Of a DNA stretch of 64,000 bases, positions 47,207-62,985 are shown piece by piece. The DNA lies in the NCBI RefSeq assembly GCF_025264685.1, contig NZ_CP073721.1, forward strand, positions 5,695,001 to 5,759,000, read 5' to 3'. Source of the DNA: Dactylosporangium roseum (lineage in GTDB: Bacteria > Actinomycetota > Actinomycetes > Mycobacteriales > Micromonosporaceae). Position numbers and translations under genes: made by a program. Under the pieces are notes generated by a model that saw only the letters and a list, made by a program, of their open reading frames with translations, ran no database searches and was not told the DNA's origin. The number at the start of each line of letters is the position of its first letter. The first letter of the stretch is position 1.

Positions 47207-47589
47207 CACACTCTCCAAAGTGGATGAATGCGCCCCAAGTCACAGCAGGTCAGCGGTGCCGGCGATGGGGCGCGGTGGACTCATCGGTGAACATCTCAAC
47301 CGCACCTCCTCTCGCCAAAGGGCTGACCACGTGATCGTCGCATCCCCCAACCAGATCGTGCAACCCGCAACCTCCCCGATGGCTTGGCCGCCGAGTGGTT
47401 GCGTGAAGCTGCTCGCTGTCAGCGAGGGAAGCCCACTTCGACCTGCCGCAGACCTCGTCGTCCCGCACCACACGGCTGACCTGGCGCGGTGAACACCCGC
47501 ACCTCTACATCGGCGCGTGGGACGGTTTATGCTGGCACGGGCGACCGAGTCTGTCCCGCCTGAAGCGGGGATGTGTCAGAGCGCCTCGT
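47207..47589. other. Gene-free stretch
   Basis: No ORF here has convincing homology on either strand; the short frames look like shadows of each other. It lies between the VOC gene promoter and an ISAs1 remnant and is probably IS debris. Confidence 0.35.
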
Positions 47590-48220
47590 GGCGCACTGGT
47601 TGCCCTTGACGGTCAGGACCCAGTGCGCGCCGCGCCCGGCGAGGTAGGCGACGTGGTCGCGTTGACAGTGCAGCGCGTCGGCGGTCACGACGGTGCCATG
47701 CAGGTCACCGATCTGATCCAGCAGGGTGGTGAAGCGGGTGATCTCGTTGGTCTTGGTGTCGACGTCGGTGCTGGCCAGGACGATGCCGGTGCGCTGATCG
47801 GCGGCTGCGAGGACGTGCCGGGCGGCGCTGTCGCGGGTGCGAGAGCCGCGCAGGGTCTTGCCGTCCACGGCGATCGCTCGTCTGGACCCGGGTGCTAGTG
47901 CGGGGATCCTTGCGGCGAGCCAGATTCCGATCGCCGCAGTGAGCAGATCCGGGTCGATGGCTTGGAGCAGTCTGCGGATCATCGCTTCGGATGGCCGACG
48001 GTCCGCGTCGATGCCCAGCAGTACCGCGGTGTCGGCGGGCAGGTCGGCGACCCATTCGGCGATCGCGGTGTAGGAGCGGTAGCCGGCCACGACCGCGCAG
48101 ACAGCCGCCGTGAGCACCACGGTCAGGTGATGGCGGATGCCCCGGCGGGCGCGCGGATCGGGCACCGCGGCCAGGGCTGCGGGCAGACCGACGGTCAACT
48201 CCGGCGGGCGGAGTCCTGTG
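47590..48220 (-). mobile_element. ISAs1-family transposase, truncated at both ends
   Basis: The minus-strand frame reads ALAAVPDPRARRGIRHHLTV, then AIAVDGKTLRGSRTRD (first catalytic Asp region), VTADALHCQRDHVAYLAG and HWVLTVKGNQ. The C-terminal catalytic Glu region is lost at about 47590 (CATRRSDTSP is unrelated). Upstream, the coding stops exactly where the terminal repeat of the next IS begins (48221), so that IS inserted into this one. Confidence 0.75.
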
Positions 48221-49457: not shown

Positions 49458-50420
49458 ATGGCGGTCGTGGGCTATCTGGCGGCTATCAACCGGGCGCTCC
49501 ATGACGAGATGGCGCGAGACCCGGCGGTCAGCGTCCTGGGCGAGGACGTGCGCGTCGGCGTGACCGGGCTGACCAAAGGGCTCTTCGACGCCTTCGGCTC
49601 CGATCGGGTGCTGGACACCCCACTTTCGGAGCAGGCGTTCACCAGTTTCGCGACGGGCGCGGCGATGACCGGCCAGCGCCCCGTGGTGGAGTTCCAGATC
49701 CCGTCGCTGCTCTATCTGGTCCTCGAACAGATCGCCAACCAGGCGCACAAGTTCTCGCTCATGACCGGCGGGCAGGTGAACGTGCCCGTCACCTATCTGG
49801 TCCCGAGCTCCGGTTCGCGGTACGGCATGGCCGGCCAGCACTCCGACCACCCCTATAGCCTTTTCGCGCATGTGGGCGTCAAGACCGTGGTCCCCGCCAC
49901 GCCGGCCGACGCCTACGGAGTGATGCTGTCGGCCATCAGAGACCCCGACCCGGTGGTGTTGTTCTTTCCCGCCTACCTGATGGGTGTGACCGAGGAGGTT
50001 CCGGGCGAGCTTCCCGCGGTACCGCTTGGCCGGGCCCGTGTCCACCGGGAAGGAACCGATGTCACGGTGGTGGCGACCGGGCATCTGGTGCAGCAGGCGC
50101 TCGCCGTCGCGGAAAGATTGGCCGGGGACATCTCGATCGAGGTGGTCGATCCCAGGACGCTCTACCCGCTCGACTGGGTAACGCTGCGCGAGTCGGTCCA
50201 CAAGACGGGACGGCTGGTGGTCGTCGACGACTCCAACCGGATGTGCGGCTTCGGCGCGGAGGTCGTCGCGACGGCCGCGCAGGAGTTCGCGCTGGTCTCG
50301 CCGCCCGTGCGGATCTCGAGGCCCGACGGGGCGGTCATCCCCTACGCGGTCGAGCTCGACATTGCGTTGCTTCCGAGCGAGCAGCAGCTCGAGGAGGCCG
50401 TCCGGGCGGTGTGCAAGTGA
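49458..50420 (+). CDS. Pyruvate-dehydrogenase E1-beta-like protein (thiamine-dependent)
   Basis: A 320-residue transketolase-like Pyr/C-terminal protein: YLAAINRALHDEMARDPAVS, VLGEDVRVGVTGLTKGLFDA, TPLSEQAFTSFATGAAMTG, VVATGHLVQQALAVAERLAG and VVDPRTLYPLD. In 2-oxoacid dehydrogenases the beta subunit works with an E1-alpha that binds the thiamine phosphate; none lies beside it here. Known context: orthosomycin clusters contain AviB1/AviB2-like E1 alpha/beta pairs thought to add a two-carbon branch to a sugar. GGGAG lies seven bases before the ATG; its stop overlaps the next GTG. Confidence 0.85.
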   Translation: MAVVGYLAAINRALHDEMARDPAVSVLGEDVRVGVTGLTKGLFDAFGSDRVLDTPLSEQAFTSFATGAAMTGQRPVVEFQIPSLLYLVLEQIANQAHKFSLMTGGQVNVPVTYLVPSSGSRYGMAGQHSDHPYSLFAHVGVKTVVPATPADAYGVMLSAIRDPDPVVLFFPAYLMGVTEEVPGELPAVPLGRARVHREGTDVTVVATGHLVQQALAVAERLAGDISIEVVDPRTLYPLDWVTLRESVHKTGRLVVVDDSNRMCGFGAEVVATAAQEFALVSPPVRISRPDGAVIPYAVELDIALLPSEQQLEEAVRAVCK

Positions 50421-51421
50421 GCGACGGCGCCCCGGACGGCGGCCCGCCGAAGGTCGCCACCGTCACGGTCGGGACCAACGAGCTGAAGTGGCTGGACCGG
50501 TGCCTCGGCTCGTTGACGAAGTCCGACACGACCGGGTTCGAGCTGGAGTGCCACTACGTCGACAACGCGTCCGCCGACGGCAGCGCCGATCATGTCGCCG
50601 CCGCCTATCCGTCCGTGTGCATCACGCGCAACGAACGCAACCTCGGCTTCACCGGGGCCAACAACGTGGGGATCCGGAAGGCGCTGGACGGTGGCGCGGA
50701 CTACGTCTTCCTGATCAATCCCGACACCTTCACCCCGCCGGGCCTCGTCCGTGGGCTGGTGGAGTTCGCCGAACGCTGGCCCGACTACGGGGTCATCGGT
50801 CCGATGCAGTACCGCTACAACCCCGACAGCGACGAACTGGCCGACTTCAACGACTGGTCGCAGACCGCACTGTGGCTGGGCGAGCAGCACGCTTTCGCCG
50901 GTGACGGGATCGTTCACCCGTCACCGGCGGGCCCGATGACCGGCCGGGCCCCGCGAACGTTCGAGCCCGCCTACGTCCAAGGGGCGGCGTTCTTCGTGCG
51001 GGCCGAGGTGTTCGCGAAGATCGGGCTGCTCGACCCGGTGTTCCACACCTACTACGAGGAGACGGACCTTTGCCGCCGGGTCCGGTGGGCCGGGTGGCGG
51101 GTGGCGCTCCTGCTGGACCTCGGCGTACAGCACTACGGCGGGGGCGGCACGGCGGCGAGCGAGTACACGCGCGTCAACATGCGACGCAACCGCTACTACT
51201 ACCTGCTGACGGACGTGGAGTGGTCGCCGTTGAAGACCGCCCGGCTGGTGTCCCGTTGGCTGGTCGACGACCTGCGAGGACACAGCGTCAGCGGTGACAC
51301 GGCCCCGGCGATCGGACGCCGCGAGACCGCGCAGGCGCTCGTGTGGATCGCCCGGAGACTACCGACGATCCGCAGCCGCAGGGCCGAACACCGGCGGCTC
51401 GCCGGGGCGCGGGCTCGGTGA
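50417..51421 (+). CDS. GT2-family glycosyltransferase (rhamnosyltransferase-like)
   Basis: A 334-residue inverting GT-A enzyme. The nucleotide-sugar region is VATVTVGTNELKWLDRCLGS, YVDNASADGS, ERNLGFTGANNVGIRKA and LINPDTFTPPG (DxD-like site). The acceptor half has PAYVQGAAFFVRAEVFAKIG and YYEETDLCRRVRWAGW, the ED-x-D-x-C-x-R pattern. It is cytoplasmic and resembles WbbL-type deoxysugar transferases. GTG overlaps the E1-beta stop and its own stop overlaps the next GTG. Confidence 0.9.
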   Translation: MSDGAPDGGPPKVATVTVGTNELKWLDRCLGSLTKSDTTGFELECHYVDNASADGSADHVAAAYPSVCITRNERNLGFTGANNVGIRKALDGGADYVFLINPDTFTPPGLVRGLVEFAERWPDYGVIGPMQYRYNPDSDELADFNDWSQTALWLGEQHAFAGDGIVHPSPAGPMTGRAPRTFEPAYVQGAAFFVRAEVFAKIGLLDPVFHTYYEETDLCRRVRWAGWRVALLLDLGVQHYGGGGTAASEYTRVNMRRNRYYYLLTDVEWSPLKTARLVSRWLVDDLRGHSVSGDTAPAIGRRETAQALVWIARRLPTIRSRRAEHRRLAGARAR

Positions 51422-52470
51422 GCCGTCCGCGCATCGCCATCGCGGGAAACCTTCGCTGGAACGCGGGGTTCAGCGAGACCGTCGCCAACTACGTGGCGGC
51501 GGCCCCCGGCGTGGGCTGCGAGATCGCGGTGGCGGCCCCGGTGTCGCGGATGGACGCCGAGGTGCCGAAGCACCTGCCCGTGGTGGAGGACCTCGGCTGG
51601 GCGACCCACCTGGTCGTGATGTTCGAGGCCCGGCAGTTCCTCTCCGACGAGCAGCGCGAACTGGTCTCGAGCATTCCCCGCGCCCGCCGGGTCGTGATCG
51701 ACTTCGATGGACATTACGACCCGGACGCGGCGACCGAGGTCGGCCCCGGACCGGTGACGGCCTGGCGCGAGTTGTACCGGGAGCTCAGCGACCTGGTGCT
51801 ACTGCCCAAGCTCGGCGGGCGGCTGCCGCCGGGCGCCGCGTTCTTCCCCTGCATGGGGATGCCCGCCACGGTGCGCCGGCCACCGCTGCACGGGGACACC
51901 GACTACGACCTGCAGTACATCGGCAGCAACTGGTGGCGCTGGGATCCACTCACCGAGGTCGTCGAGGCGGCGCTGGCCGCCGAGCCGGCGCTCAGCCGGA
52001 TCCGGGTGTGCGGCCGCTGGTGGGACGGCGAGGTCTGCGTCGGGCACGAGAGGGCCAGCGCCAACGAGCCCGGCTGGCTCCGGGAACGCGGCGTGGAGGT
52101 CGCTCCGGCGGTGGCCTTCGGCCGCGTCGTCGCGGAGATGGGACGGTCCCTGGTCTCCCCGGTCCTGGTCCGCCCGCTGGTCGCGGGGACCGGACTGCTG
52201 ACGCCCCGGATGTTCGAGACGCTCGCCTCGGGCAGCGTGCCCGTGCTGCCACCGGCCGCCGAGTTCATGGCGGAACTCTATGGCGACGGCTGCGAGAAGT
52301 TGATGCTGGGCAAGGACCCCGCCACGACGCTCGGCCGGATCGCCACGAACCGCCGGACGTACGCCCGCGTGGTCGCCGAGATCATGGAACGGGTCCGCGA
52401 GCGGTACAGCTACCGCCGGGTGCTCGATGACCTGCTGGGGTTTCTGGGCTGCCGCGGCGACGGCCGGTAG
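51418..52470 (+). CDS. CgeB-like glycosyltransferase
   Basis: A 350-residue GT-B-type protein: RPRIAIAGNLRWNAGFSETV, VVIDFDGHYDPDA and YDLQYIGSNWWRWDPLTEVV. The C-terminal motif LTPRMFETLASGSVPVLPP is shared with CgeB/DUF3880 spore-protein maturation glycosyltransferases. It is the third gene of an overlapping trio (GTG at 51418). Likely builds a sugar-sugar linkage in the product. Confidence 0.75.
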   Translation: MSRPRIAIAGNLRWNAGFSETVANYVAAAPGVGCEIAVAAPVSRMDAEVPKHLPVVEDLGWATHLVVMFEARQFLSDEQRELVSSIPRARRVVIDFDGHYDPDAATEVGPGPVTAWRELYRELSDLVLLPKLGGRLPPGAAFFPCMGMPATVRRPPLHGDTDYDLQYIGSNWWRWDPLTEVVEAALAAEPALSRIRVCGRWWDGEVCVGHERASANEPGWLRERGVEVAPAVAFGRVVAEMGRSLVSPVLVRPLVAGTGLLTPRMFETLASGSVPVLPPAAEFMAELYGDGCEKLMLGKDPATTLGRIATNRRTYARVVAEIMERVRERYSYRRVLDDLLGFLGCRGDGR

Positions 52471-52494
52471 GGACCGCGTCCGGAGCGGCGCCCG

Positions 52495-53358
52495 TCAGTG
52501 TTCGCGGGCGATACCCAGGAGGGTCGCTCCGCCGTAGACGACCGTCAGGAGAAGGGAACGCCACCGCGCCTCGGGGGCGTTGCGATGGCGGTCCAGCTCC
52601 TTGCGGAAGCCGGGCACGGTGGATTTCCGACGGACCTCGGAGCGGCCCTGCCAGTAGGCCCGGCGAAGCAGGTACCGCAGCCGCAGGCGGTGCGGGTCCA
52701 CGTCGTGGACGACCGCGACGTGCCCGAGCAGCCGTTCGCGGGCGCCGTACTGTTTCATCAGCCCGATGAACGAGGTGTCCTCGCCGGACAGCAGGCCGCC
52801 ACCGGTACGGCTGAGGGCCAGGTCGAAGTCCAACCCGTGGGCGGCCGCGAAGGCCGAGTCCACGCCCATGCAGGCACCCCAAATCTTGATCTCGCCCTGG
52901 GGCCGGTGCCAGCCGATGAGGTGGAACTGCCCCGACGTGACGAAGAACGGGAGCTTGCGCAGTGTCGACGGCCTGACCAGGCGAGTGCCGGTGACGTGGG
53001 CACCCGCCCTGAATGCGGCGCGGACCTCGTCCACCGCGGTGGCGTCGAGACGCACGTCATCGTCGATGAAGAGGATGTGGTGGTGCGGCCGTTCCCTGAG
53101 GATGGTGTTGCGCGACGCGGAGAGGCCATTGTTGGCGCCCAGGACACGCATGCTGCCGCCCTCGGCCCGGACCTTCTCCGCGACCGCCTCGGCCTGCGCA
53201 CTGTGCGGCCGATCGAGCAGCACGACGTATTCGTCGTCTCTTAGCTGGGAGATGTTGTGCCGGAAGTTCTTCTCGACGTTCTCCACCCGATAGGCACAGA
53301 CGGCCACCACCATCGGATGGTCGGATGGGCTTCCCGCTCCTGTCACTGGGCTGAGCAT
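52495..53358 (-). CDS. GT2-family glycosyltransferase, convergent
   Basis: A 287-residue GT-A enzyme: MVVAVCAYRVENVEKNFRHN, YVVLLDRPHSAQAEAVAEKV, VLGANNGLSASRNTILRERP and HILFIDDDVRLDATAV (DDD metal site). In the second half are KIWGACMGVDSAFAAAHGLD and LLSGEDTSFIGLMKQYG. It is transcribed toward the upstream trio. The ATG at 53358 sits close before the first strand; the frame remains open to 53490. The segment 53359-53551 is probably a divergent promoter region with an unusually A+T-rich patch near 53380-53420. Confidence 0.85.
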   Translation of the reverse strand: MLSPVTGAGSPSDHPMVVAVCAYRVENVEKNFRHNISQLRDDEYVVLLDRPHSAQAEAVAEKVRAEGGSMRVLGANNGLSASRNTILRERPHHHILFIDDDVRLDATAVDEVRAAFRAGAHVTGTRLVRPSTLRKLPFFVTSGQFHLIGWHRPQGEIKIWGACMGVDSAFAAAHGLDFDLALSRTGGGLLSGEDTSFIGLMKQYGARERLLGHVAVVHDVDPHRLRLRYLLRRAYWQGRSEVRRKSTVPGFRKELDRHRNAPEARWRSLLLTVVYGGATLLGIAREH

Positions 53359-53551
53359 AGTGCACCAATGCCTAGGGAAAACGTTAGTGGTACCGGCCTC
53401 GGCAAAAGATAGGATGTCACGAAACTCTCTGGACCGGCGTCCGGGTAACGCGACCGCCTGGTGAATCACAGTAGTGAGATCCCTAGTCACAGGCTTACCG
53501 GAAATTGTTAAGGTCGCTATTCGTGAATCTCGAACGATCTTAGGGCGGGCG

Positions 53552-54226
53552 ATGACTCGGGAACGTTATCAGGCGTGGGAATGGGACACCGCGGAGGGCA
53601 TGCAACTGCGTCTGGCGGGGTTCCTGCCGCGCCCCGTGTACCTTTCCGACCGGCAGCGCCGGGTCGACTGGGTCGCCGATCGCCTGGCCCTGAACGCCGA
53701 CAGCGAGGTGCTCGAGGTCGGCAGCGGCGAAGGTGTGATGGCGGCGGCGCTGGCCTCCCGAATCCGCATGATCTGCTGCGCCGACGTGAGCAAGTCGTTT
53801 CTGGACAAGGCGCGGGAGACGTGCTCGGACCACGCGAACGTCACGTACCACCTCATCGACGACGACTATCTTGAGACGCTGCCGTCCGCGTCGTTCGACG
53901 CAGGCTACTCCCTGAACGTATTCATCCACCTGGACGCCTACGAAATCTTCCAGTACTTCCGGGAGCTTTCCCGGGTGCTGCGTCCCGGCGGCCGGTTCGT
54001 CATGAACTTTCTGGAGCTCGGCGAGGTCACGTGGCCCTTCTTCCGGGGCGACCTCGCGCGATACCGGCAGGCGCAGGCCGTCGAGGCCAAGGGAATGGTC
54101 AGCTGGCACCACCGGGTCACCGTGGCGGCGCTGGCCCGCGAGGCGGGCCTCGAGCCGCTGCCGGAGAGCCTGGAGGACGAGGGTGGCGTCGTCTACCTGA
54201 CGCTGCGCCGCACGCCCACGGCCTGA
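53552..54226 (+). CDS. Class I SAM-dependent methyltransferase
   Basis: A 224-residue methyltransferase with VLEVGSGEGVMAAALASRI, CADVSKSFLDKARE, DAGYSLNVFIHLDAYEIF and ELSRVLRPGGRFVMNFLELG. In a glycosyltransferase-rich cluster it probably O- or C-methylates a sugar residue (inference). The ATG at 53552 is chosen by domain fit; an open frame extends to 53474. Confidence 0.85.
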   Translation: MTRERYQAWEWDTAEGMQLRLAGFLPRPVYLSDRQRRVDWVADRLALNADSEVLEVGSGEGVMAAALASRIRMICCADVSKSFLDKARETCSDHANVTYHLIDDDYLETLPSASFDAGYSLNVFIHLDAYEIFQYFRELSRVLRPGGRFVMNFLELGEVTWPFFRGDLARYRQAQAVEAKGMVSWHHRVTVAALAREAGLEPLPESLEDEGGVVYLTLRRTPTA

Positions 54227-54289
54227 CCGCGAACCCCGCGGGCGTTCCGGGACGTCCGGCGTGACATCGATTGCCAGATGAGGAGCACG

Positions 54290-55126
54290 ATGGCCCCCCA
54301 AACGCTGACCGAGGAACAGATCGAGGACTTCGTCCGGGACGGGTTCGTCCGGATCGAGGGCGCCTTCCCCCGCGAGCTGGCCGACCAGGTACGGGCGTCG
54401 CTGTGGAAGCAACTCGACATGGATCCGGACGACCCCACCACGTGGACGAAGGAAGTGATCCGGCTCGGCTTCTGCGACGAGGAGCCGTTCGTCCGCAGCG
54501 CGAACACGCCCCGATTGTACTCGGCCTACGACCAGCTCGTGGGGCCGGGGCGGTGGAAACAGCCGACCACCATGGGCACCTTCCCCATCCGGTTCCCCAC
54601 CAAGGACAAGAAGCCCGAGGACGCCGAGGACTTCGGCTGGCACATCGACGCCGGCTTCCTCGCCGTCGACATCGGCGTGGAGACGTACAAGGAGTGGCAG
54701 GGTGAGATGGCCGTCATCCCGCCGAACTACGAGGAGACGTTCCGCTACAACGTCTGGTCGAAGGGTCGGGCCCTGCTCATGCTCTTCCTCTACTCCGACA
54801 CCGGCGAGGCGGATGCACCTACCCTGATCAGGGTCGGATCGCACCTCGACGTACCGCCGCTGCTGGAGCCCGCCGGACGTGAGGGAAGGTATCTGCACAC
54901 CGACGACGTGGGTGTGGACCGGCCGCTCGCGTCGGCTACCGGGAACGCGGGCGACGTCTACCTTTGCCACCCGTTCCTGGTACACACCCCCGTCGCCAAC
55001 GTGGGCAGCAAGCCAAAGTTCATGGCGCAACCAAACCTGGAGCCGGTGGCCGAGCTGGAGCTGGATCGCGCGGACGGCCGATACACCCCGTTGGAGCGGT
55101 CCGTCCGGCTTGGGCTCGGCAGATAG
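54290..55126 (+). CDS. PhyH-family Fe(II)/2-oxoglutarate oxygenase, orthosomycin-type candidate
   Basis: A 278-residue non-heme iron oxygenase. LTEEQIEDFVRDGFVRIEGA is the family N-terminus. The iron facial triad is visible as W-H118-I-D120 plus a His in YLCHPFLVHTP (227 or 232). KPKFMAQPNL follows with a basic residue for 2-oxoglutarate. It resembles the AviO1/EvdO oxygenases that close orthoester and methylenedioxy rings in orthosomycins (from memory; not searched). GAGGAG precedes the ATG at 54290; ATG 54278 has no RBS. Confidence 0.82.
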   Translation: MAPQTLTEEQIEDFVRDGFVRIEGAFPRELADQVRASLWKQLDMDPDDPTTWTKEVIRLGFCDEEPFVRSANTPRLYSAYDQLVGPGRWKQPTTMGTFPIRFPTKDKKPEDAEDFGWHIDAGFLAVDIGVETYKEWQGEMAVIPPNYEETFRYNVWSKGRALLMLFLYSDTGEADAPTLIRVGSHLDVPPLLEPAGREGRYLHTDDVGVDRPLASATGNAGDVYLCHPFLVHTPVANVGSKPKFMAQPNLEPVAELELDRADGRYTPLERSVRLGLGR

Positions 55127-55173
55127 TACACCTATGCTCGGTCTCCGGGACCGAGGGCCGGAAGGGGGCCGGG

Positions 55174-55920
55174 GTGAGCTACCGCCACGTCGTCGTCAAG
55201 AGCGACTACACCGATCTGGCAAGCGGATCCGTGTTGCATTCGGCGCCCGGCTTCCCCGCCTTCCCGGTGCGGCTCGCCTCGGAGATCTTCTCGCGCGCCA
55301 TGGTGTTGCGCGGCGGCGACGACCCCGCGGTGGTCTGGGACCCCTGCTGCGGCGGCGGCTATCTGCTGTCGGTGCTGGGGCTGCTGCACCGTGGGGCGAT
55401 CGCGTCGCTGGTGGCCAGCGACATCGACCCGGCCGCGCTGCAGCTGGCCCGGGAGAACCTCGGCCTGCTCGACCCGGCCGCGCTCGACGACCGGGCGAGA
55501 GCGCTCGAGGAGCAGGCCGAGCGGTTCGGCAAACCGTCCTACCTGGAGGCCGCCGCGGCGGCGCGCAGGCTCGGGACGGCGCTGGCGGCCCAGGGCGGAC
55601 CGCTGACGGCGATCGTCCGGCGGGCTGACGTCTTCGACCGGGCCGGGCTCGAGGCGGTGGTCGACGGCGCCGCCCCGGACATCGTGATCGCGGACGTGCC
55701 CTACGGTGAACAGACGACCTGGAGCGGGAGCGCCGGCGACGCCGGCGTGCCGGAGATGCTCACCACCGTCGCGTCGGTCCTCACCTCCGGCGCGGTGCTC
55801 GCCGTCTCCGCGCGTGGCCGCAAAGTACCGCTGGGCGGGGTCTGCCGGCCCGTCGAGTCATTCCGCGTGGGCACCCGCGCCGTCGCGCTGCTGCGGCCCA
55901 CGAACTTCACCGGCCGCTGA
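55174..55920 (+). CDS. aviRa: AviRa-like 23S rRNA (guanine) methyltransferase, self-resistance
   Basis: A 248-residue methyltransferase. The start YRHVVVKSDYTDLASGSVLH then SAPGFPAFPVRLASEIFSRA, the SAM site VVWDPCCGGGYLLSVLGLLH, the region SERFGKPSYLEAA-like (EQAERFGKPSYLEAAAAARR) and IADVPYGEQTTW match AviRa, which methylates 23S rRNA and confers avilamycin resistance. The GTG at 55174 follows GAAGGGGG. Downstream of the oxygenase by 47 bases in the same direction. Presence with an AviRb-like gene is strong evidence for an orthosomycin-type product. Confidence 0.88.
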   Translation: MSYRHVVVKSDYTDLASGSVLHSAPGFPAFPVRLASEIFSRAMVLRGGDDPAVVWDPCCGGGYLLSVLGLLHRGAIASLVASDIDPAALQLARENLGLLDPAALDDRARALEEQAERFGKPSYLEAAAAARRLGTALAAQGGPLTAIVRRADVFDRAGLEAVVDGAAPDIVIADVPYGEQTTWSGSAGDAGVPEMLTTVASVLTSGAVLAVSARGRKVPLGGVCRPVESFRVGTRAVALLRPTNFTGR

Positions 55921-55932
55921 CCCTACCGAACC

Positions 55933-56880
55933 CTACGCGGACAAGAGCCGGAGGAGCTGCTTCCGGTCCGGGCCAAGGGTGGGCAATGGGGCCCCGTGAC
56001 CCTGCCGCTCAATCGTGTCTTTGATGCCGGGCCGCTCGAGTACTTCCCGCGGCAGCGCCAGGCAAAAGGCGATCTCCAGGAGGGCGCGGAAGGCATCGGC
56101 GTCGTGGAGCGCGGAGTTGGCCAGGCGACCCATGTCCGACTCGGGTGCGGACCACTGACGGCCCTCCCGCAGCGCCGTCATCTCCGCCAGGCGGGCCCGG
56201 TCGGCGCCGATCTGGCTCCAGTAGTACGGAGCGACAAGTTCCTCGGTGTGCTTGTGCCATGCCCGCGCGAAGCCCGCCCGGTCATCCAGATAGTCCCGGA
56301 CCGTGTGCCGCAGCAACTGGGCGTGCACCATCCCGGTGGTGACGCCCCGCCCCACCGAGGGGTCGGCACGCAGCTCGTCCCCGCCGGAGGTGCGCACTCC
56401 CGTGACATGCGGAACGCCCGGAATCGCCGGCAGCCCGGCGATCAGCTCGGTCACGCGCACACCCCGGCGGATCACTATCCCCGGCTGCTCGGCCGCGATC
56501 CCGGCTACCACGTATTCGACCACCGGGCGGCGGCCGGTCACGAACCGCAGCCCCGCGTCGCCCGGGCGTGGCTCCCGGTCGGAGACGCTTGGCGGCAATG
56601 CCTACAGCGGATCCCGCCACACACAGCCCGCCGCCAGCAGCCGGTCGGTCATCTCAGGCAGCTCCTGGTCGCAGACCTGCCGGAATCGCGGCATCAGGCC
56701 GTGCGGCTGGCGGAACTGGGCGACGCCCGTGCGCGGCCAGGAGCGCCATGCCTCGCCGGGCGTCGGCGGAACGCTCGCGGGGTCGGCCTCCAGGACCGTG
56801 ACCTGGTGGCCGTCCCACGCAAGCATGATCGCCGACGCGAGCCCGATCACGCCGCCACCGCAGACCACGATCGTTCCCAT
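55933..56880 (-). pseudogene. FAD-dependent monooxygenase, inactivated
   Basis: The FAD-binding start is intact (MGTIVVCGGGVIGLASAIML, VTVLEADPASVP). At 56602-56604 an in-frame TAG interrupts RDPL-stop-ALPPSVSDREP. Further on, DELRADPSVGRGVTTGMVHA shows a large in-frame deletion: in the family the first half of that string and the PSVGRGVTTG block are separated by roughly 130 residues (DAMGRRS and NAD-like regions missing). The C-terminal half to RKQLLRLLSA reads through. Probably a discarded tailoring or unrelated oxidase, converging on the aviRa-like gene. Confidence 0.75.
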
Positions 56881-57459
56881 GCCGGTCCCTCACATCCCGC
56901 AGCCCGCGCCATCCCGGCGCCCGCTGATCAGACCGCGCGTACAGCCAAGCTAAAAGATCGGGAGCCACAACGCAACGGTCGTTCTCGATGCCTCATGGTG
57001 TTCCCGTTTGCACGGATCGAGTTGGTCTGATATATGGCGCACTCCCAAGATTGCCGCGCCATTCTTCCATTCCGGCGTTTCCGATCGGCGCCAACCATCC
57101 GCCGGCCACGGGGGTCGCATCGCGCGTGGCATGTGTCACAGCCGATTGATACAACTCCATCGGTTCCCGCGACGTGGCAGCGGGCCTAGTGTTCCCACTA
57201 GGTTGGTTACACGACGGGGAGAAAGCCATGCCAGACGCAGGTGTTCCCGCGGGGCGGTGTCGAGCCCGCCCGCGGCGGTGACCGGATTCCGCAGCGGCGG
57301 TCGCCGCCGACACCGCGGCCGCAACGATCGTCCGTCCCATGTGCAGTTGACCGCGCACGCCACCGGACTACGCGTGGTCGCCGACGCCGATCGCTCGGAA
57401 TTTTGAGTTGATTTCAACCGTGCTCGTCATTGCCGATACACCACGGTGGAGGTGCATGC
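56881..57459. other. Regulatory intergenic region before the LuxR gene
   Basis: No coding sequence was recognised. It contains a perfect inverted repeat at 57185-57202 and A+T-richer patches (near 57030 and 57405-57425), compatible with promoters for the divergent oxidase remnant and the LuxR gene. Confidence 0.45.
57185..57202. promoter_or_regulatory. Perfect inverted repeat, possible operator
   Basis: CCTAGTG, four-base spacer TTCC, then CACTAGG. It lies 258 bases before the LuxR-type gene. The CTAGTG half also contains the TAGTG seen in the repeated promoter-like elements. It may be a regulator site or a small hairpin. Confidence 0.35.
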
Positions 57460-57702
57460 ATGGAGACAATGACCAAGTTGTCCAGGATGGAGTGCCGGAT
57501 TATCGAATGCATTGCGGCGGGGGACTCGACGACAAGTATCGCGCAGAAGCTCTACCTGAGCCGCCAGGGGGTCGAATATCACGTCAGCCGGTTGCTGCAG
57601 AGGATGCGGGTGCCAAATCGGCCCGCACTGGTGGCCAAGGCGTATTCGATGGGGATTTTCGACTCGTCGGCATGGCCACCCAAGGTGGACGACGAGTTAT
57701 AG
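57460..57702 (+). CDS. Small LuxR-type HTH regulator
   Basis: An 80-residue protein that is almost only a GerE/LuxR HTH: LSRMECRIIECIAAGDSTTS, IAQKLYLSRQGVEYHVSRLL, QRMRVPNRPALVAKAYSMG. There is no receiver or ligand-binding domain. Such orphan HTH proteins often act as pathway regulators. GGAGG lies seven bases before the ATG at 57460. It sits 48 bases before the aviRb-like gene in the same direction. Confidence 0.85.
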   Translation: METMTKLSRMECRIIECIAAGDSTTSIAQKLYLSRQGVEYHVSRLLQRMRVPNRPALVAKAYSMGIFDSSAWPPKVDDEL

Positions 57703-57735
57703 GTGTCGTGCGTTTCCGGGTGCCATAAAGACCAT

Positions 57736-57750
57736 TGCTAGTATTCTCCC
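57736..57750 (+). promoter_or_regulatory. Extended -10 promoter of a probably leaderless aviRb-like mRNA
   Basis: TGCTAGTAT (extended -10, hexamer TAGTAT at 57739-57744) ends six bases before the ATG at 57751, and no Shine-Dalgarno is visible. That spacing places the transcription start at or next to the A of the ATG, a common actinobacterial leaderless arrangement. No clear -35 is seen. Confidence 0.4.
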
Positions 57751-58656
57751 ATGCGGGACAGAGACAGCCGGTCCGTGCCACATCGCCGGCGCGATGCCGG
57801 GCCGGGGTCGGCCCGGGCCGCGCGGCGTAGTGAGACGCCGGACCGGGTCCACAGCCGCAACGACCGGTTTCAGGTGTGGAAGGCGCTGCTCACCAACCGG
57901 AGCCAGCGACAGCGGCTCGGCGAGTTCCTGATCCACGGCGTCCGGCCGATCTCCCTTGCCGTCGAGTACGGTTGGCCGCTGCGCCGCCTGCTCTATCCAG
58001 CCGGGCAGAAGCTGTCTTCGTGGGCGGACGGTCTCCTTCGGGAGAGCGGCGTCGCGTCGGTCGCGGTGGAGCCGGAGCTTTTGCAGGAACTCGGCGAACG
58101 CGAATCCGCGCCCGAGCTGATCGCGGTCGGCGCCATCCGGCCCGACGACCTGGGGCGCCTAGAGCCGGGCGCCAACTTCCTCGGCCTGGCACTCGACCGG
58201 CTCACGAACCCGGGCAACATCGGCACGTTGGTTCGTTCCGCCGACGCGTTCGGCGCGTCGGGACTAATCGTCACCGGTCATGCGGCCGACATTTACGACC
58301 CCAAGGCGGTGCGGGCCAGCACCGGTTCGCTGTTCCGGTTGCCGGTGGTCCGCACCGCCGCCCCGGGCGACGCGCTCGACTGGGTGGTCGCCCGACGGCA
58401 GGACGGCCCGCCGATCAGGATTGTGGGGACCGACGAGAACGGCGACACGTCGGTCGCCGACTGCGATCTGACCGGGCCGGTCCTGATCGTCGTCGGCAAC
58501 GAGGCGAGCGGGATGAGCGCCCGGTGGCGGGAAATCTGCGACGAGATCGTGAGCATCCCCATCGGCGGCGCCGCGAGCTCCCTCAACGCCGCGTCGGCCG
58601 GCACCCTCATGCTCTACGAGGCCGCCCGGCAGCGCGGATTTCCCCCGGTGCTCTAG
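57751..58656 (+). CDS. aviRb: AviRb-like 23S rRNA 2'-O-methyltransferase (SpoU/TrmH family), self-resistance
   Basis: A 301-residue SpoU-class enzyme. The substrate-binding N-domain has SRNDRFQVWKALLTNRSQRQ and FLIHGVRPISLAVEYGWPLR, very close to AviRb as I remember it. The three SpoU motifs are NPGNIGTLVRSADAFGASGL, LIVVGNEASGMS and IPIGGAASSLNAASAGTLML, which form the trefoil-knot SAM site. AviRb 2'-O-methylates a 23S rRNA uridine in the avilamycin site. It differs from housekeeping SpoU genes by its context. The first 30 or so residues are basic and poorly conserved. Confidence 0.88.
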   Translation: MRDRDSRSVPHRRRDAGPGSARAARRSETPDRVHSRNDRFQVWKALLTNRSQRQRLGEFLIHGVRPISLAVEYGWPLRRLLYPAGQKLSSWADGLLRESGVASVAVEPELLQELGERESAPELIAVGAIRPDDLGRLEPGANFLGLALDRLTNPGNIGTLVRSADAFGASGLIVTGHAADIYDPKAVRASTGSLFRLPVVRTAAPGDALDWVVARRQDGPPIRIVGTDENGDTSVADCDLTGPVLIVVGNEASGMSARWREICDEIVSIPIGGAASSLNAASAGTLMLYEAARQRGFPPVL

Positions 58657-58814: not shown

Positions 58815-60002
58815 TCATCGGGAGCGCTCACCGATCAGCACGTGCCGCTCGTCTCGACCGAAGTCCGTGGCAGCCAGCGCGGCGGTGGGCCGGAAACCGA
58901 TCTCGTGGAGAAGGCGTTCCCAGGTCGCAACGTCCGCAAGCGGCGCACCGGGCAGCCGCACCTCGCGGTCTTCCGCCCGCCACCAGCCGTCCAACAGGCC
59001 GAACGTCATCGTGAGGAAGCGCAGGAACGACGTGGTCTCCAGGAGCACCATGCGCCCGCCGCCCGCGATCAGGTAGTCGACGTGCGCAAGGGTGTCGCGA
59101 AGGTTACGCGTCGCATGCAGCACGTTGGCCGCGATGACGGCGTCGTAACCGCCCTGCTCGAATCGCTGGCCGCCGGGATCGCTCTCGATGTCAAGCCGCT
59201 TGAACTCCATGCCCGGGTGATCCGCCTGGAACTGCCGGCGTCCGTGGCGCAGGAAGCTCGGAGAGATGTCGGTGTACGTGTAGGCCACACGGTCGCCGTA
59301 GGGTTTCAGGGCAGCGAGCACGTGCGCCGTCGTTCCACCCGTTCCGGCTCCGACCTCGAGCACGCGCAGCGCGGTTCGGTCGCCGTCTGCGTCGACGTGC
59401 GCGGCTACGGCCTCCGCGACCAGCTCGTTGAGCCGGTCGGAGAAGGGGTCGCCCCGGTAGGTGCTCGCCACCATCTCCATCGACGAACTCGGGAACATCA
59501 CCCCGATCGGCTGGATCTCACCGCGCAACAGCCGCGGGTATTCGTTCACGCACGTCCGTAGCAGCCTCAACTGGGCCGCCAGTTCGGGATGCTCGGTGAC
59601 CAGCAGCTCAGCCTCGGCGTCCAGGTCGGCATCCGCTATACGGGCCAAGGAATCGGTTGCTCGCAGGAGGTCGCCGTCGCGCTCGAGGAGACCGTCCGCC
59701 ACGACGATGTCGAGCAGGGTTCGCCACAGCCGAGCGTGTACGGGGTCGATGGCCAGGACCGTCGCGAGATCGCCGGCGGGCCGCACCTCCCCCGGCGTCG
59801 TGAAGGCGCCCATGCTCTGGATGCATCGCGCGAGTATCCGCGCGCTGAACGTCTCCCGTCGTTGCCAGCCCGCCGCCAGTCGTGCGCCATCCAGCGGGTC
59901 GGGCCGCTCACGCCCAGCGAGCGCGTCCCACGGCGCCGCATCGCCTGTGGGCTGCGCGTCGTTGCGGGTGACGGCAGTCGGTGCCTCGCTGGACAGCTTC
60001 AC
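58815..60002 (-). CDS. SAM-dependent methyltransferase, PKS/NRPS-associated type
   Basis: A 395-residue stand-alone methyltransferase. The N-terminal 200 residues are helical and resemble the lead-in of C-methyltransferase domains in polyketide synthases. The catalytic part has FPSSSMEMVASTYRGDPFSD, LRVLEVGAGTGGTTAHVLAA, YTDISPSFL, YDAVIAANVLHATRNLRDTL and GGRMVLLETTSFLRFL. It probably C-methylates an ACP-bound acyl intermediate (inference). It is flanked by 64-bp direct repeats, unlike any other gene here, and lies behind the ketosynthase pair on the same strand. Confidence 0.85.
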   Translation of the reverse strand: MKLSSEAPTAVTRNDAQPTGDAAPWDALAGRERPDPLDGARLAAGWQRRETFSARILARCIQSMGAFTTPGEVRPAGDLATVLAIDPVHARLWRTLLDIVVADGLLERDGDLLRATDSLARIADADLDAEAELLVTEHPELAAQLRLLRTCVNEYPRLLRGEIQPIGVMFPSSSMEMVASTYRGDPFSDRLNELVAEAVAAHVDADGDRTALRVLEVGAGTGGTTAHVLAALKPYGDRVAYTYTDISPSFLRHGRRQFQADHPGMEFKRLDIESDPGGQRFEQGGYDAVIAANVLHATRNLRDTLAHVDYLIAGGGRMVLLETTSFLRFLTMTFGLLDGWWRAEDREVRLPGAPLADVATWERLLHEIGFRPTAALAATDFGRDERHVLIGERSR

Positions 60003-60291: not shown

Positions 60292-61404
60292 TCAAGACCC
60301 GGCATCCGGGCGGGCGAGGAGCGTCGCACCGGCCGTCCCGCCGGGGTCGACGGACGTGACGAGCGCCAGGCGGACGGCGCCGCCGTTTAGGACCGCGGCA
60401 GTTAGCTGGAACGCGGCGGACGCGGCGGACGTGTCGCCGATCAGCGCACGCAGGCGCACCTCACGGGGGGCGTGCCCGCCGAGCGCCTTGCGCAACCCGA
60501 AGTCCTCGGCCGCACCGAGTGTCCCGCCGCAGTCCGCCGGCACGACCAGGTCGACCATTGGCGGAGCGACACCCGCCGCGTCGAGGGCGGCGCCGACCGC
60601 GCGCGCCACCGCCTCCGGTGCCTCGTCGGGAGTCGCGAACGCGGTGAACCGGCTGGCCAGCACCCCGGCCAGGGATCGGCGCCCATGAGCGACGGCCCGC
60701 TCTTCGGATGATTCCACAAGCAGCACGGCGCAGCCCTCGCCGAGGGGCCCGGGCGCCTGCCGGTCGCTGTTCGCGCGGCTGTGGTGCTCGAGCCACGCGC
60801 GGTGCGGCGAGTACTCCTCGACCGCGCCGACGATTATCGCGTCCGCATGGCGCCGGCGCAGGAGCCGCACCGCATAGTTCAGGGCCAGCAGTCCGGTGAG
60901 CGCCCCGCCCGAGACGGTGACGTTCGGGCCCTGCACGGTGTGGCGGATGGCGCTCATCCCGGCGGCCGCGTTCAAGCCGGAGACCGGGATGGAGGCGACG
61001 TCGACATGGTAGGGCTTCGCGGACACCAGCGTTTCGCGCGTGAAGTCCATTTGCGTCTTCACGCTGCCGTGCCCGGTGCCGAGCACGATGCCGAGCGCCT
61101 CGGGGTCGGCGGCGGCGAGGCCCGGCCCGGCATCCGCGAGGACCAGGCCCATCGTGGCCACCGAGAAGGCGGTGAACCGATCGAACGACCGGGTACCCTT
61201 GCGGCCCAGCAGCGCCTGCACGTCGAAATCGGGCACCCAGCCGCCCTCCGCCATCGGGCTGTCCCCGCGCAGCTCGGCCGGCAGCGCCCGGATCGTGGAG
61301 CGGGCGGCGGCCAAGCCGTCGCGGAAGGCGGCCGGATCAACGCCGTACGGCGAGATGGCCGCCCATCTCGAGATGACGGGTACCGCGGCGGTGCGGGCTG
61401 GCAT
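60292..61404 (-). CDS. Ketosynthase-like chain-length-factor homologue, catalytically dead
   Basis: A 370-residue thiolase-fold protein. The nucleophile motif is NVTVSGGALTGLLAL, where the Cys of TACxSG aligns with Ala168. The HGTGT histidine is replaced (VPADCGGTLG) and the second His loop is GDTSAASAAF. With all three catalytic residues gone it should serve as the non-catalytic partner (CLF/KSbeta role) of the adjacent ketosynthase, shaping chain length. The 19-base gap to the KS gene supports one operon. It is shorter than a KS at the N-terminus. Confidence 0.85.
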   Translation of the reverse strand: MPARTAAVPVISRWAAISPYGVDPAAFRDGLAAARSTIRALPAELRGDSPMAEGGWVPDFDVQALLGRKGTRSFDRFTAFSVATMGLVLADAGPGLAAADPEALGIVLGTGHGSVKTQMDFTRETLVSAKPYHVDVASIPVSGLNAAAGMSAIRHTVQGPNVTVSGGALTGLLALNYAVRLLRRRHADAIIVGAVEEYSPHRAWLEHHSRANSDRQAPGPLGEGCAVLLVESSEERAVAHGRRSLAGVLASRFTAFATPDEAPEAVARAVGAALDAAGVAPPMVDLVVPADCGGTLGAAEDFGLRKALGGHAPREVRLRALIGDTSAASAAFQLTAAVLNGGAVRLALVTSVDPGGTAGATLLARPDAGS

Positions 61405-61423: not shown

Positions 61424-62719
61424 TCATCGGGCCGGCTCGGCTACCGGTCGCGGGTATCGGCCGAGGATCAGCACGGCGTTGTTGCCGTTGAACGCGAGCC
61501 CGTTGTTCTGCACGACGGCGGGATTCGCCGGCCGAGCGTGGTTGGGCACGCAGTCCACGGCGCAGTCCGGATCTGTGTTTTCGTGGTTGACGGTCGGCGG
61601 GATGAAGCCGTGCGTCATCGACAGCGCGCACGCGGCCGTGGCGATCGCACTCGCCGCGCCCATGGCGTGACCGAGCATCGACTTGAGACCGACGACCGGC
61701 GGCAGCGGGACGTCGCCGAACGCCTGGCGCAGCGCCGCCACCTCGGTGACGTCGTTGGCCATGGTACCGGTGCCGTGGGCGGACACGTAGTCGATGTGTT
61801 CCGCCGCCGTGCCGGCGTCGCGGTGCGCGGCCCGGATGGTTCGCGTGATGCCGTCGCGGTCCGGTGCCGTCGGGTGGGTGGCGTCGCAGGTGAGGCCGTA
61901 GCCGAGGATCTCCGCGTGGATCCGGGCGCCGCGGGCCAGCGCGGACTCGAGCGTCTCCAGAACGAGGATCGCGGCGCCCTCGCCGGGGAGCAGGCCCTGG
62001 CGGTCGACGTCGAACGGCCGGCAGGCGTCGGGCGCGATGGTGCCGAGGCGGCAGAACGCGGCGAAGGTGCGACGGCACATGGCGTCGGCCCCGCCGGCCA
62101 GCGCGATGTCCACGTCGCCGCAGCGCAGCGCGTCGAGGCCGTAGCCGATCGCGTAGTTGCCCGACGCGCACGCAGTCGGGACGGTGACCGCCTCGACGTC
62201 GGTCAGGCCGAACTCGGCGACGATGCCGTTGGACAGCTGGGCCGCCGGGTATCGGCGGGCGACGGTCGCCGGGAACGCCCCGAAGCCTTGTTCAAGGCCG
62301 ACCGCGACCAGTCCCTCGAGGTCGTCGGAGCCGCCGTCCGTGGTGCCGACCGCGACCAGCGCCCGCTGCCGTCGCAGTTGCTCGTCGGCGAGGCCGGCGT
62401 CCAGCACCGCCATGCGGGCCGCCGCCACCGAGAACCGGGCGGCCTTGCTCAGCTCGACGAGCGGCACCCGCCGGATCCACCGGGCCGGATCGAAGCCGGT
62501 GACCTCGCATCCGTTGTGGTGGTTGAAGCCCTCCGTCGAGAACGCCGTGATCGGCAGTACGGCGCGGCGCCCGCTGCGCAGCCCGTCAGCGAACTGCTCA
62601 AGGCCGATGCCGATGGCACTCACCACGCCCATGCCGGTGATCACCACCCGCGGGGCGGTCGCTGTTGGCGTGCGGGCGTCCTCGTCTTCGCGCGCCGTGG
62701 CGGAGCCGGGTGCACTCAT
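61424..62719 (-). CDS. Beta-ketoacyl-ACP synthase (KS), catalytically complete
   Basis: A 431-residue KASII-type enzyme with the full triad: Cys184 in VPTACASGNYA, His315 in SAHGTGTMANDVTE and His351 in LGHAMGAA. PRVVITGMGVVSAIGIGLEQ marks the N-terminus. It performs decarboxylative condensation on ACP-bound chains. The start overlaps the ACP stop (ATGA). With the dead partner downstream it resembles the KS-CLF pairs of type II, often highly reducing, polyketide systems; primary fatty-acid synthesis is unlikely in this context. Confidence 0.92.
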   Translation of the reverse strand: MSAPGSATAREDEDARTPTATAPRVVITGMGVVSAIGIGLEQFADGLRSGRRAVLPITAFSTEGFNHHNGCEVTGFDPARWIRRVPLVELSKAARFSVAAARMAVLDAGLADEQLRRQRALVAVGTTDGGSDDLEGLVAVGLEQGFGAFPATVARRYPAAQLSNGIVAEFGLTDVEAVTVPTACASGNYAIGYGLDALRCGDVDIALAGGADAMCRRTFAAFCRLGTIAPDACRPFDVDRQGLLPGEGAAILVLETLESALARGARIHAEILGYGLTCDATHPTAPDRDGITRTIRAAHRDAGTAAEHIDYVSAHGTGTMANDVTEVAALRQAFGDVPLPPVVGLKSMLGHAMGAASAIATAACALSMTHGFIPPTVNHENTDPDCAVDCVPNHARPANPAVVQNNGLAFNGNNAVLILGRYPRPVAEPAR

Positions 62720-62985
62720 CCGGCGGACCGCGCCTCGATGATCTCGTAGATGCCGGACAGACTCGCGATCTGCTGGATGTCGCTCTGCTCGATCGTCACC
62801 TGCAGGCGCTTCTCCAGTGCGGCGACAATTTCGATGGCCATCAGCGAATCCATGCTCAGGTCGTCGCGGAACCGCGTTTCTTCGTTGACCTCACTCTCGT
62901 CCACCTCGAGGATCTCGCAGACCAGCTGCTTGATTTCCTGCTTCTGCTCGTCGGTGAGATACGACAGAGGGGTGGGCGATGCCAT
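62716..62985 (-). CDS. Acyl carrier protein
   Basis: An 89-residue ACP. Ser47 in DDLSMDSLMAIEIVAALEKR is the phosphopantetheine attachment site. The surrounding acidic helix II is typical. First gene of the minus-strand operon ACP-KS-CLF-like, with a 397-base divergent promoter region behind it. GCAGAAGATGGC gives only a weak ribosome-binding site. Confidence 0.92.
   Translation of the reverse strand: MASPTPLSYLTDEQKQEIKQLVCEILEVDESEVNEETRFRDDLSMDSLMAIEIVAALEKRLQVTIEQSDIQQIASLSGIYEIIEARSAG

Follow-up and report, generated by a model that had tools for sequence, protein, structure and literature searches.

An orthosomycin-class gene cluster of Dactylosporangium roseum with a putative beta-phenylalanine-primed polyketide arm

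The dichloroisoeverninate unit is a standard part of avilamycin A and is made by AviM, AviG4 and AviH (PMC8234114), and avilamycin and evernimicin have been located on ribosomal helices H89/H91 in published structures (PMC10497419). Two further described systems bear on the locus reported here, namely the hitachimycin pathway, in which HitA and HitB make and load (S)-beta-phenylalanine (beta-Phe; PMC11284099), and the ishigamide system, a well-studied highly reducing type II polyketide synthase (PKS; PMC7949117). Here we describe a gene cluster of Dactylosporangium roseum that has genes in common with all of these. Its left part lies in the window, i.e. the whole 64,000-nucleotide stretch analysed, which runs from position 5695001 to 5759000 of an 8.22 Mb chromosome assembled as one contig (98.9% complete). 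The chromosome to the right of the window was added, genes were called there, and proteins were matched against Pfam/TIGR models and solved structures; coordinates above 64000 continue the window numbering (L005 and L009 carry offsets of 59000 and 77000, respectively). In addition, the cluster was compared gene by gene with seven other orthosomycin clusters (hereafter the seven relatives) in an orthologue table.

The orthosomycin core and its resistance genes

The cluster spans 49458 to about 96994 (about 47 kb) and reaches about 33 kb beyond the window end. Its core genes have counterparts in all or almost all of the seven relatives, mostly at 50-87% identity, and a concatenation of ten core proteins is 71-77% identical to theirs, with Spongiactinospora, which belongs to a different family, at the top. 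The preliminary description of positions 49458-58656 had proposed that the host makes an orthosomycin-class inhibitor or a relative of one. Because the cluster holds orthologues of EvdO1, EvdO2 and AviO1/EvdMO1, an E1-alpha subunit, deoxysugar genes and a core of near-complete orthology, the sequence strongly supports the region from 49458 onward as the left part of an orthosomycin-class cluster in a Micromonosporaceae chromosome. Core genes, and one additional glycosyltransferase (76514), to the right of the window (SAM, S-adenosylmethionine; NDP and GDP, nucleoside and guanosine diphosphate):

67690-68346, AviO1/EvdMO1 oxygenase (385 bits to 6ec3, 322 to 4xaa)
69226, C-methyltransferase
70511, MycE-like methyltransferase
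72773-73561, EvdO2 orthologue (501 bits)
74323-75264, EvdO1 orthologue (611 bits)
75258, radical SAM protein
76514, EryCIII-type, activator-dependent glycosyltransferase (436 bits vs a cut-off of 440)
81121 (L009:4121-5071), E1-alpha subunit (E1_dh)
89863, minus strand, core epimerase
93568, oxidoreductase
94569, NDP-hexose 2,3-dehydratase
95972, GDP-mannose dehydratase

The scores of the three oxygenases are those to solved iron/2-oxoglutarate (Fe/2OG) enzymes of the orthosomycin group, next to which other families are far weaker. Genes for the deoxysugars, the C-methylation and the branched sugar (E1 alpha/beta) of the heptasaccharide core are likewise present, and an RmlB-type 4,6-dehydratase (66%) sits elsewhere in the genome. 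In common with the avi/evd clusters are EvdO1, EvdO2, AviO1/EvdMO1, AviRa/AviRb, E1 alpha/beta and the glycosyltransferases, with near one-to-one orthology, as well as the C-methyltransferase, the radical SAM protein, the 2,3-dehydratase and the GDP-mannose dehydratase; matching avi genes are listed in PMC8234114. Unlike in the avi/evd clusters, the E1 alpha and beta genes lie 31 kb apart, the methyltransferase-oxygenase EvdMO1 is split into 80122 and 67690, and an additional EryCIII-type glycosyltransferase (76514) is found, to which the relatives give matches of 27-28% at most and which may add a further sugar.

A scan of a genome collection with EvdO1 returned four close named relatives (Spongiactinospora sp. 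TRM90649, Micromonospora rubida NEAU-HG-1, Catenuloplanes japonicus NRRL B-16061 and Micromonospora sp. ATCC 39149) and one remote match of 25%, which lies in an uncultured Acidimicrobiales genome (L041:1114-2082); in a family-wide search, 7 of the 355 genomes, the present one among them, carried EvdO1. Transposase remnants begin beyond about 96994, and the cluster is flanked on both sides (window 47527-48165 and L007:2817-3032) by remnants of DDE transposases that share one Pfam type. Together with cluster proteins that are closest to those of Spongiactinospora, the flanking remnants suggest horizontal transfer.

Both AviRa and AviRb homologues named in the preliminary description were recovered as self-resistance methyltransferases:

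55174-55920, plus strand, AviRa-type 23S rRNA methyltransferase (PF11599 238 bits, cut-off 25.7, E 1.3e-70)
57874-58656, plus strand, AviRb-type SpoU 23S rRNA methyltransferase (1x7o 324 bits, E 8.5e-96)

The AviRa protein matches the crystal structure 1o9g at E 3.6e-80 across 242 residues; a longer TTG open reading frame (54964-55920) overlaps the oxygenase gene, and the true AviRa start lies near 55174. The second gene is of the AviRb type and no housekeeping SpoU enzyme, because other SpoU enzymes score at most 110 bits, and since full-length AviRa matches occur in just 3 of 101 related genomes, this one counted, the AviRa/AviRb pair is not a chance association. The preliminary description had named two observations that would speak against it, housekeeping enzymes as best matches of the two methyltransferases and an extension free of deoxysugar genes, and neither was made. 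AviRa and AviRb modify ribosomal helices H91 and H89, and the orthosomycin site (H89/H91, uL16) is distant from the sites of most other large-subunit drugs. Methylation of 23S rRNA helices 91 and 89 by the two enzymes would protect the producer, and their retention fits an unchanged ribosomal target site.

AviRa also occurs at full length in one related genome (G053:C1:3173861-3174571, L010) with no further orthosomycin genes about 60 kb to either side, i.e. as a lone resistance gene. Furthermore, a third putative RNA methyltransferase (UPF0020/RlmL-like) adjoins AviRb in Catenuloplanes japonicus (G012, L035:2926-3987) and is present in six of the seven relatives, being missing in Spongiactinospora, and none was seen in this cluster; Micromonospora sp. 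ATCC 39149 has the gene, yet no AviRb within the fetched 100 kb.

The missing dichloroisoeverninate genes and the two blocks of arm genes

All seven relatives carry AviM (orsellinate synthase), AviH (halogenase), AviN (a ketosynthase III (KSIII) acyltransferase), an O-methyltransferase and the nitrososynthase set. Unlike the avi/evd clusters, this cluster has no counterpart of AviM, AviH, AviN or the AviG4-type O-methyltransferase in the orthologue table. The preliminary description had suggested that the contig be extended in search of further oxygenases, deoxysugar genes, an orsellinate synthase and a halogenase; the former two were found, the latter two were absent chromosome-wide. Across the whole 8.2 Mb chromosome, the best match to AviM is a modular PKS at 42% (vs 70-91% among the relatives) and the best match to AviH reaches 31% (vs 75-95%), so that the AviM/AviH pair that marks the dichloroisoeverninate-bearing avilamycin/everninomicin type is not there. 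Gene content, orthology and this genome-wide absence are direct observations, and given the roles of the two proteins (PMC8234114), the usual route to the dichloroisoeverninate arm is impossible here. The nitrososynthase, aminotransferase and second C-methyltransferase common to the seven relatives have no counterpart in the gene tables of this cluster either, which therefore is not of the everninomicin type; the lack of nitrosugar genes is a trait in which it equals avilamycin and differs from everninomicin. Outside the window, some 9 kb before its left end, an 1824-aa frame contains a stretch with 38% identity to AviM (G000:C1:5683551-5686208), which is no AviM orthologue and is possibly an iterative type I PKS.

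A set of genes that occurs in none of the seven relatives (orthologue table) is found instead, in two blocks. Block 1 (58815-67415) holds on its minus strand a methyltransferase, a chain-length factor (CLF), a ketosynthase (KS) and an acyl carrier protein (ACP), and on its plus strand a synthetase, an aminomutase and two FabZ-like dehydratases, the first of which has its GTG start at about 66575 and retains the GHYPGxPxMPG motif. Block 2 (about 87771-93445, minus strand) is made up of a PaaK-like protein, an acyltransferase, a pair of KSIII-like proteins and a FabG-type ketoreductase; the core epimerase 89863 lies in their midst.

58815-59813, minus strand, SAM methyltransferase of the putative new acyl arm (Methyltransf_12; in 0 of 7 relatives)
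60292-61404, minus strand, CLF of highly reducing type II PKS kind, without catalytic Cys (6kxd_B, ishigamide CLF, 199 bits vs 77 for the next)
61424-62647, minus strand, type II PKS KS, Cys-His-His present (6kxd_A, ishigamide KS, 502 bits vs 327 for the next)
62716-62985, minus strand, ACP with DSL motif (PF00550, E 1.9e-15)
63383-65005 (L005:4383-6005, crossing the window end), plus strand, HitB-like beta-aminoacyl-ACP synthetase (7dq5, 615 bits, E 1e-183, 518 residues)
64998-66569, plus strand, predicted beta-Phe-forming phenylalanine aminomutase (TIGR04475, 862 bits, cut-off 800)
87771 (L009:10771-11838), minus strand, PaaK-like protein
90881, minus strand, KSIII-like partner, read from its sequence as having no Cys at the equivalent place
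91729, minus strand, KSIII-like protein, active-site Cys present

The aminomutase (TIGR04475) and the synthetase (7dq5, which we take to be HitB) form a beta-Phe starter-unit module of the HitA/HitB type, i.e. the combination of phenylalanine aminomutase and beta-Phe-ACP synthetase known from hitachimycin. Unlike hitachimycin, where a modular type I PKS is fed, the starter module here is set to feed a type II KS/CLF. The synthetase has Ala284 where 7dq5 has Thr and its variant 8yyr has Gly, which suggests a roomier pocket. The closest solved structure to the aminomutase is AdmH of andrimid (3unv, 731 bits vs 331 for the next), and its TSG cofactor triad is present. The same gene was considered as a tyrosine ammonia-lyase serving a coumaroyl/aryl-polyene arm, and this was dropped, since it passes the beta-Phe aminomutase model and AdmH ranks far above the lyases.

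Furthermore, the KS and CLF have ishigamide Iga11/Iga12 as best matches by a wide margin, and the ketoreductase, the two dehydratases and the one ACP complete an Iga-type highly reducing type II PKS; the cluster differs from the ishigamide system in having aromatic beta-amino-acid loading genes and in being set within an oligosaccharide cluster. Elsewhere, in G483:C1:204265-205800 (L108), a 71% identical aminomutase stands beside a distant KS/CLF (33%/27%), an ACP, an acyltransferase, a ketoreductase and an unrelated-looking AMP ligase, and the pairing of phenylalanine aminomutase and type II PKS may thus exist there as well. The KSIII-like pair also occurs in other clusters of Actinomycetes, where it adjoins a carrier protein in both of the two inspected gene by gene; no characterised product came out of this search. 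For the partner 90881, an overall thiolase/KSIII fold is predicted by a moderate model (predicted local distance difference test 73, root-mean-square deviation 7-10 A).

Proposed pathway and competing explanations

We consider it likely that the product is an orthosomycin in which the dichloroisoeverninate arm has been replaced by a beta-Phe-primed, reduced type II polyketide acyl group. In the proposed pathway, L-phenylalanine would be converted to beta-Phe by the aminomutase, and the HitB-like synthetase would load it onto the single ACP. The ACP-bound beta-Phe would then be extended by the KS/CLF, with keto groups being reduced and dehydrated by the ketoreductase and the two dehydratases. 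Meanwhile, the shared core would build the oligosaccharide, and the EvdO1, EvdO2 and AviO1-type oxygenases would close the orthoester and methylenedioxy rings. AviN, also KSIII-like, probably holds the acyl-transfer role in the relatives, and here the KSIII-like pair (91729 with Cys, 90881 without) probably takes over the transfer of the acyl chain onto the sugar; we assign this role to 91729 by analogy, because its similarity to AviN is just 20.7%. The substrate, the chain reduction and the attachment site are predicted from the protein families, and the pathway is presumed to be expressed. With somewhat less assurance, we favour the view that the cluster represents a new orthosomycin subclass, in which the beta-Phe-primed reduced polyketide would be esterified to the orthoester oligosaccharide where dichloroisoeverninic acid usually sits. 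In the open-access literature, we found neither an orthosomycin with beta-Phe nor a description of beta-amino-acid priming in a highly reducing type II PKS.

Several points weigh against a beta-Phe-primed arm. The relation of 91729 to AviN is distant (20.7%, E 3e-5), and neither the PaaK-like protein nor the methyltransferase 58815 has a step in the proposed pathway. In macrolactam pathways, a VinM-type ligase and a VinJ-type amidohydrolase shield the beta-amino group (PMC11284099), and among the cluster genes scanned there were no candidates for this protection or for a modular type I PKS, so that the cluster does not have the make-up of a macrolactam pathway; once the first round of extension is complete, an unshielded beta-amine could undergo cyclisation. 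The lack of recognised amine-protecting genes would be in line with an andrimid-like arm, in which a polyenoyl chain made by the type II PKS would be amide-joined to beta-Phe, the latter serving as linker or cap and not as starter. In andrimid, a polyenoyl chain is joined to beta-Phe, and AdmH of this pathway is the closest solved aminomutase. However, a motif scan of the cluster found no second carrier protein, an AdmF-type transglutaminase was not found by Pfam and, unlike in andrimid, NRPS (non-ribosomal peptide synthetase)/transglutaminase genes were not found in this cluster, and the best match of the synthetase is to the HitB group, whose members load ACPs and prime polyketides. We therefore regard an andrimid-like arm as unlikely.

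The arrangement of the arm genes in two blocks, with a decayed flavin adenine dinucleotide (FAD)-dependent oxidoreductase nearby and transposase fragments flanking the whole region, might also be read as two unrelated neighbours, namely an orthosomycin cluster whose aryl arm has been lost and, inserted into it, a separate cluster for a beta-Phe type II polyketide. Against this, both blocks are bordered on each side by core genes, the core is intact, and two independent landings inside it would be required; moreover, arm genes and core genes stand together in same-strand runs, and in block 2 the core epimerase 89863 (at a distance of 1 base) and core deoxysugar genes belong to the minus-strand run of the arm genes. 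Because core genes surround the blocks, in block 2 with as little as 1 base between them, two independent clusters are disfavoured, and we hold this reading to be quite improbable. Least probable by our estimate, to the point of being barely credible, is an ordinary avilamycin/everninomicin cluster whose dichloroisoeverninate genes were missed or lie elsewhere: its core identity to everninomicin-type clusters would suit it, but the chromosome-wide searches on a single, nearly complete contig returned for AviM a modular PKS and for AviH no better than the 31% match given above. Replacement of the arm by a beta-Phe-primed polyketide is thus our preferred explanation, and the strain probably makes an undescribed ribosome-targeting antibiotic, as judged from its gene families.

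Neighbouring genes and significance of the cluster

The remaining genes at 49458-58656 are these (TPP, thiamine pyrophosphate):

49458-50420, plus strand, TPP-dependent E1-beta subunit, AviB-type (Transketolase_C/Transket_pyr; 71-75% to 6 of 7 relatives)
50411-51421, plus strand, family-2 glycosyltransferase (PF00535; 66-69% in 7 of 7)
51418-52470, plus strand, group-1-like glycosyltransferase (PF13524; 57-61% in 7 of 7)
52495-53313, minus strand, family-2-like glycosyltransferase (PF00535 barely above cut-off; 62-67% in 7 of 7)
53600-54226, plus strand, class I SAM methyltransferase, orthosomycin core (Methyltransf_25; 54-56% in 7 of 7)
54290-55126, plus strand, PhyH-like Fe/2OG oxygenase (PF05721 21.1 bits, slightly under the cut-off of 22)
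55933-56880, minus strand, decayed FAD-dependent oxidoreductase
57460-57702, plus strand, small LuxR-type regulator (GerE domain; 65-70% in 7 of 7)

Pfam agreed with the preliminary description on the three glycosyltransferases, the methyltransferase and the E1-beta protein (49458-54226), and the E1-alpha partner of the latter lies 31 kb downstream of the beta gene. Its PhyH oxygenase is likewise a real and conserved gene; the assignment to the AviO1/EvdO-type orthoester/methylenedioxy enzymes, in contrast, did not hold, as orthology to AviO1, EvdO1, EvdO2 or EvdMO1 is ruled out and the sole solved relative is a weak match, the leucine hydroxylase 5nch (E 0.001). Since it is conserved together with its metal site (H118-x-D plus a His farther downstream) across the eight clusters compared, the PhyH-like protein is a genuine member of the orthosomycin pathway outside that enzyme set, and we know of no characterisation of such a protein. 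The decayed oxidoreductase, located between AviRa and the LuxR gene, is interrupted by one in-frame stop and seems also to have lost an internal segment, and no counterpart was found in the gene-by-gene table of the seven relatives; its interpretation as an AviH relic is unsupported, given that the AviH search gives no match at that place. Farther to the left, the window holds three related large sulfatases of about 750 aa each (12002-14230, 18376-20631 and 20633-22915), two of them adjacent.

The absence of AviM and AviH is the more interesting finding. If our reading is true, the sugar core and both resistance enzymes would have been retained in a natural cluster in which the arm was swapped; this would mark the arm as exchangeable and open a way to orthosomycins that differ in solubility and in their contacts with the ribosome. 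It would also join beta-amino-acid priming with a reducing type II PKS, two systems that to our knowledge have not been seen to work together, and it would make the arm-attaching enzyme and the share of the arm in ribosome binding testable.

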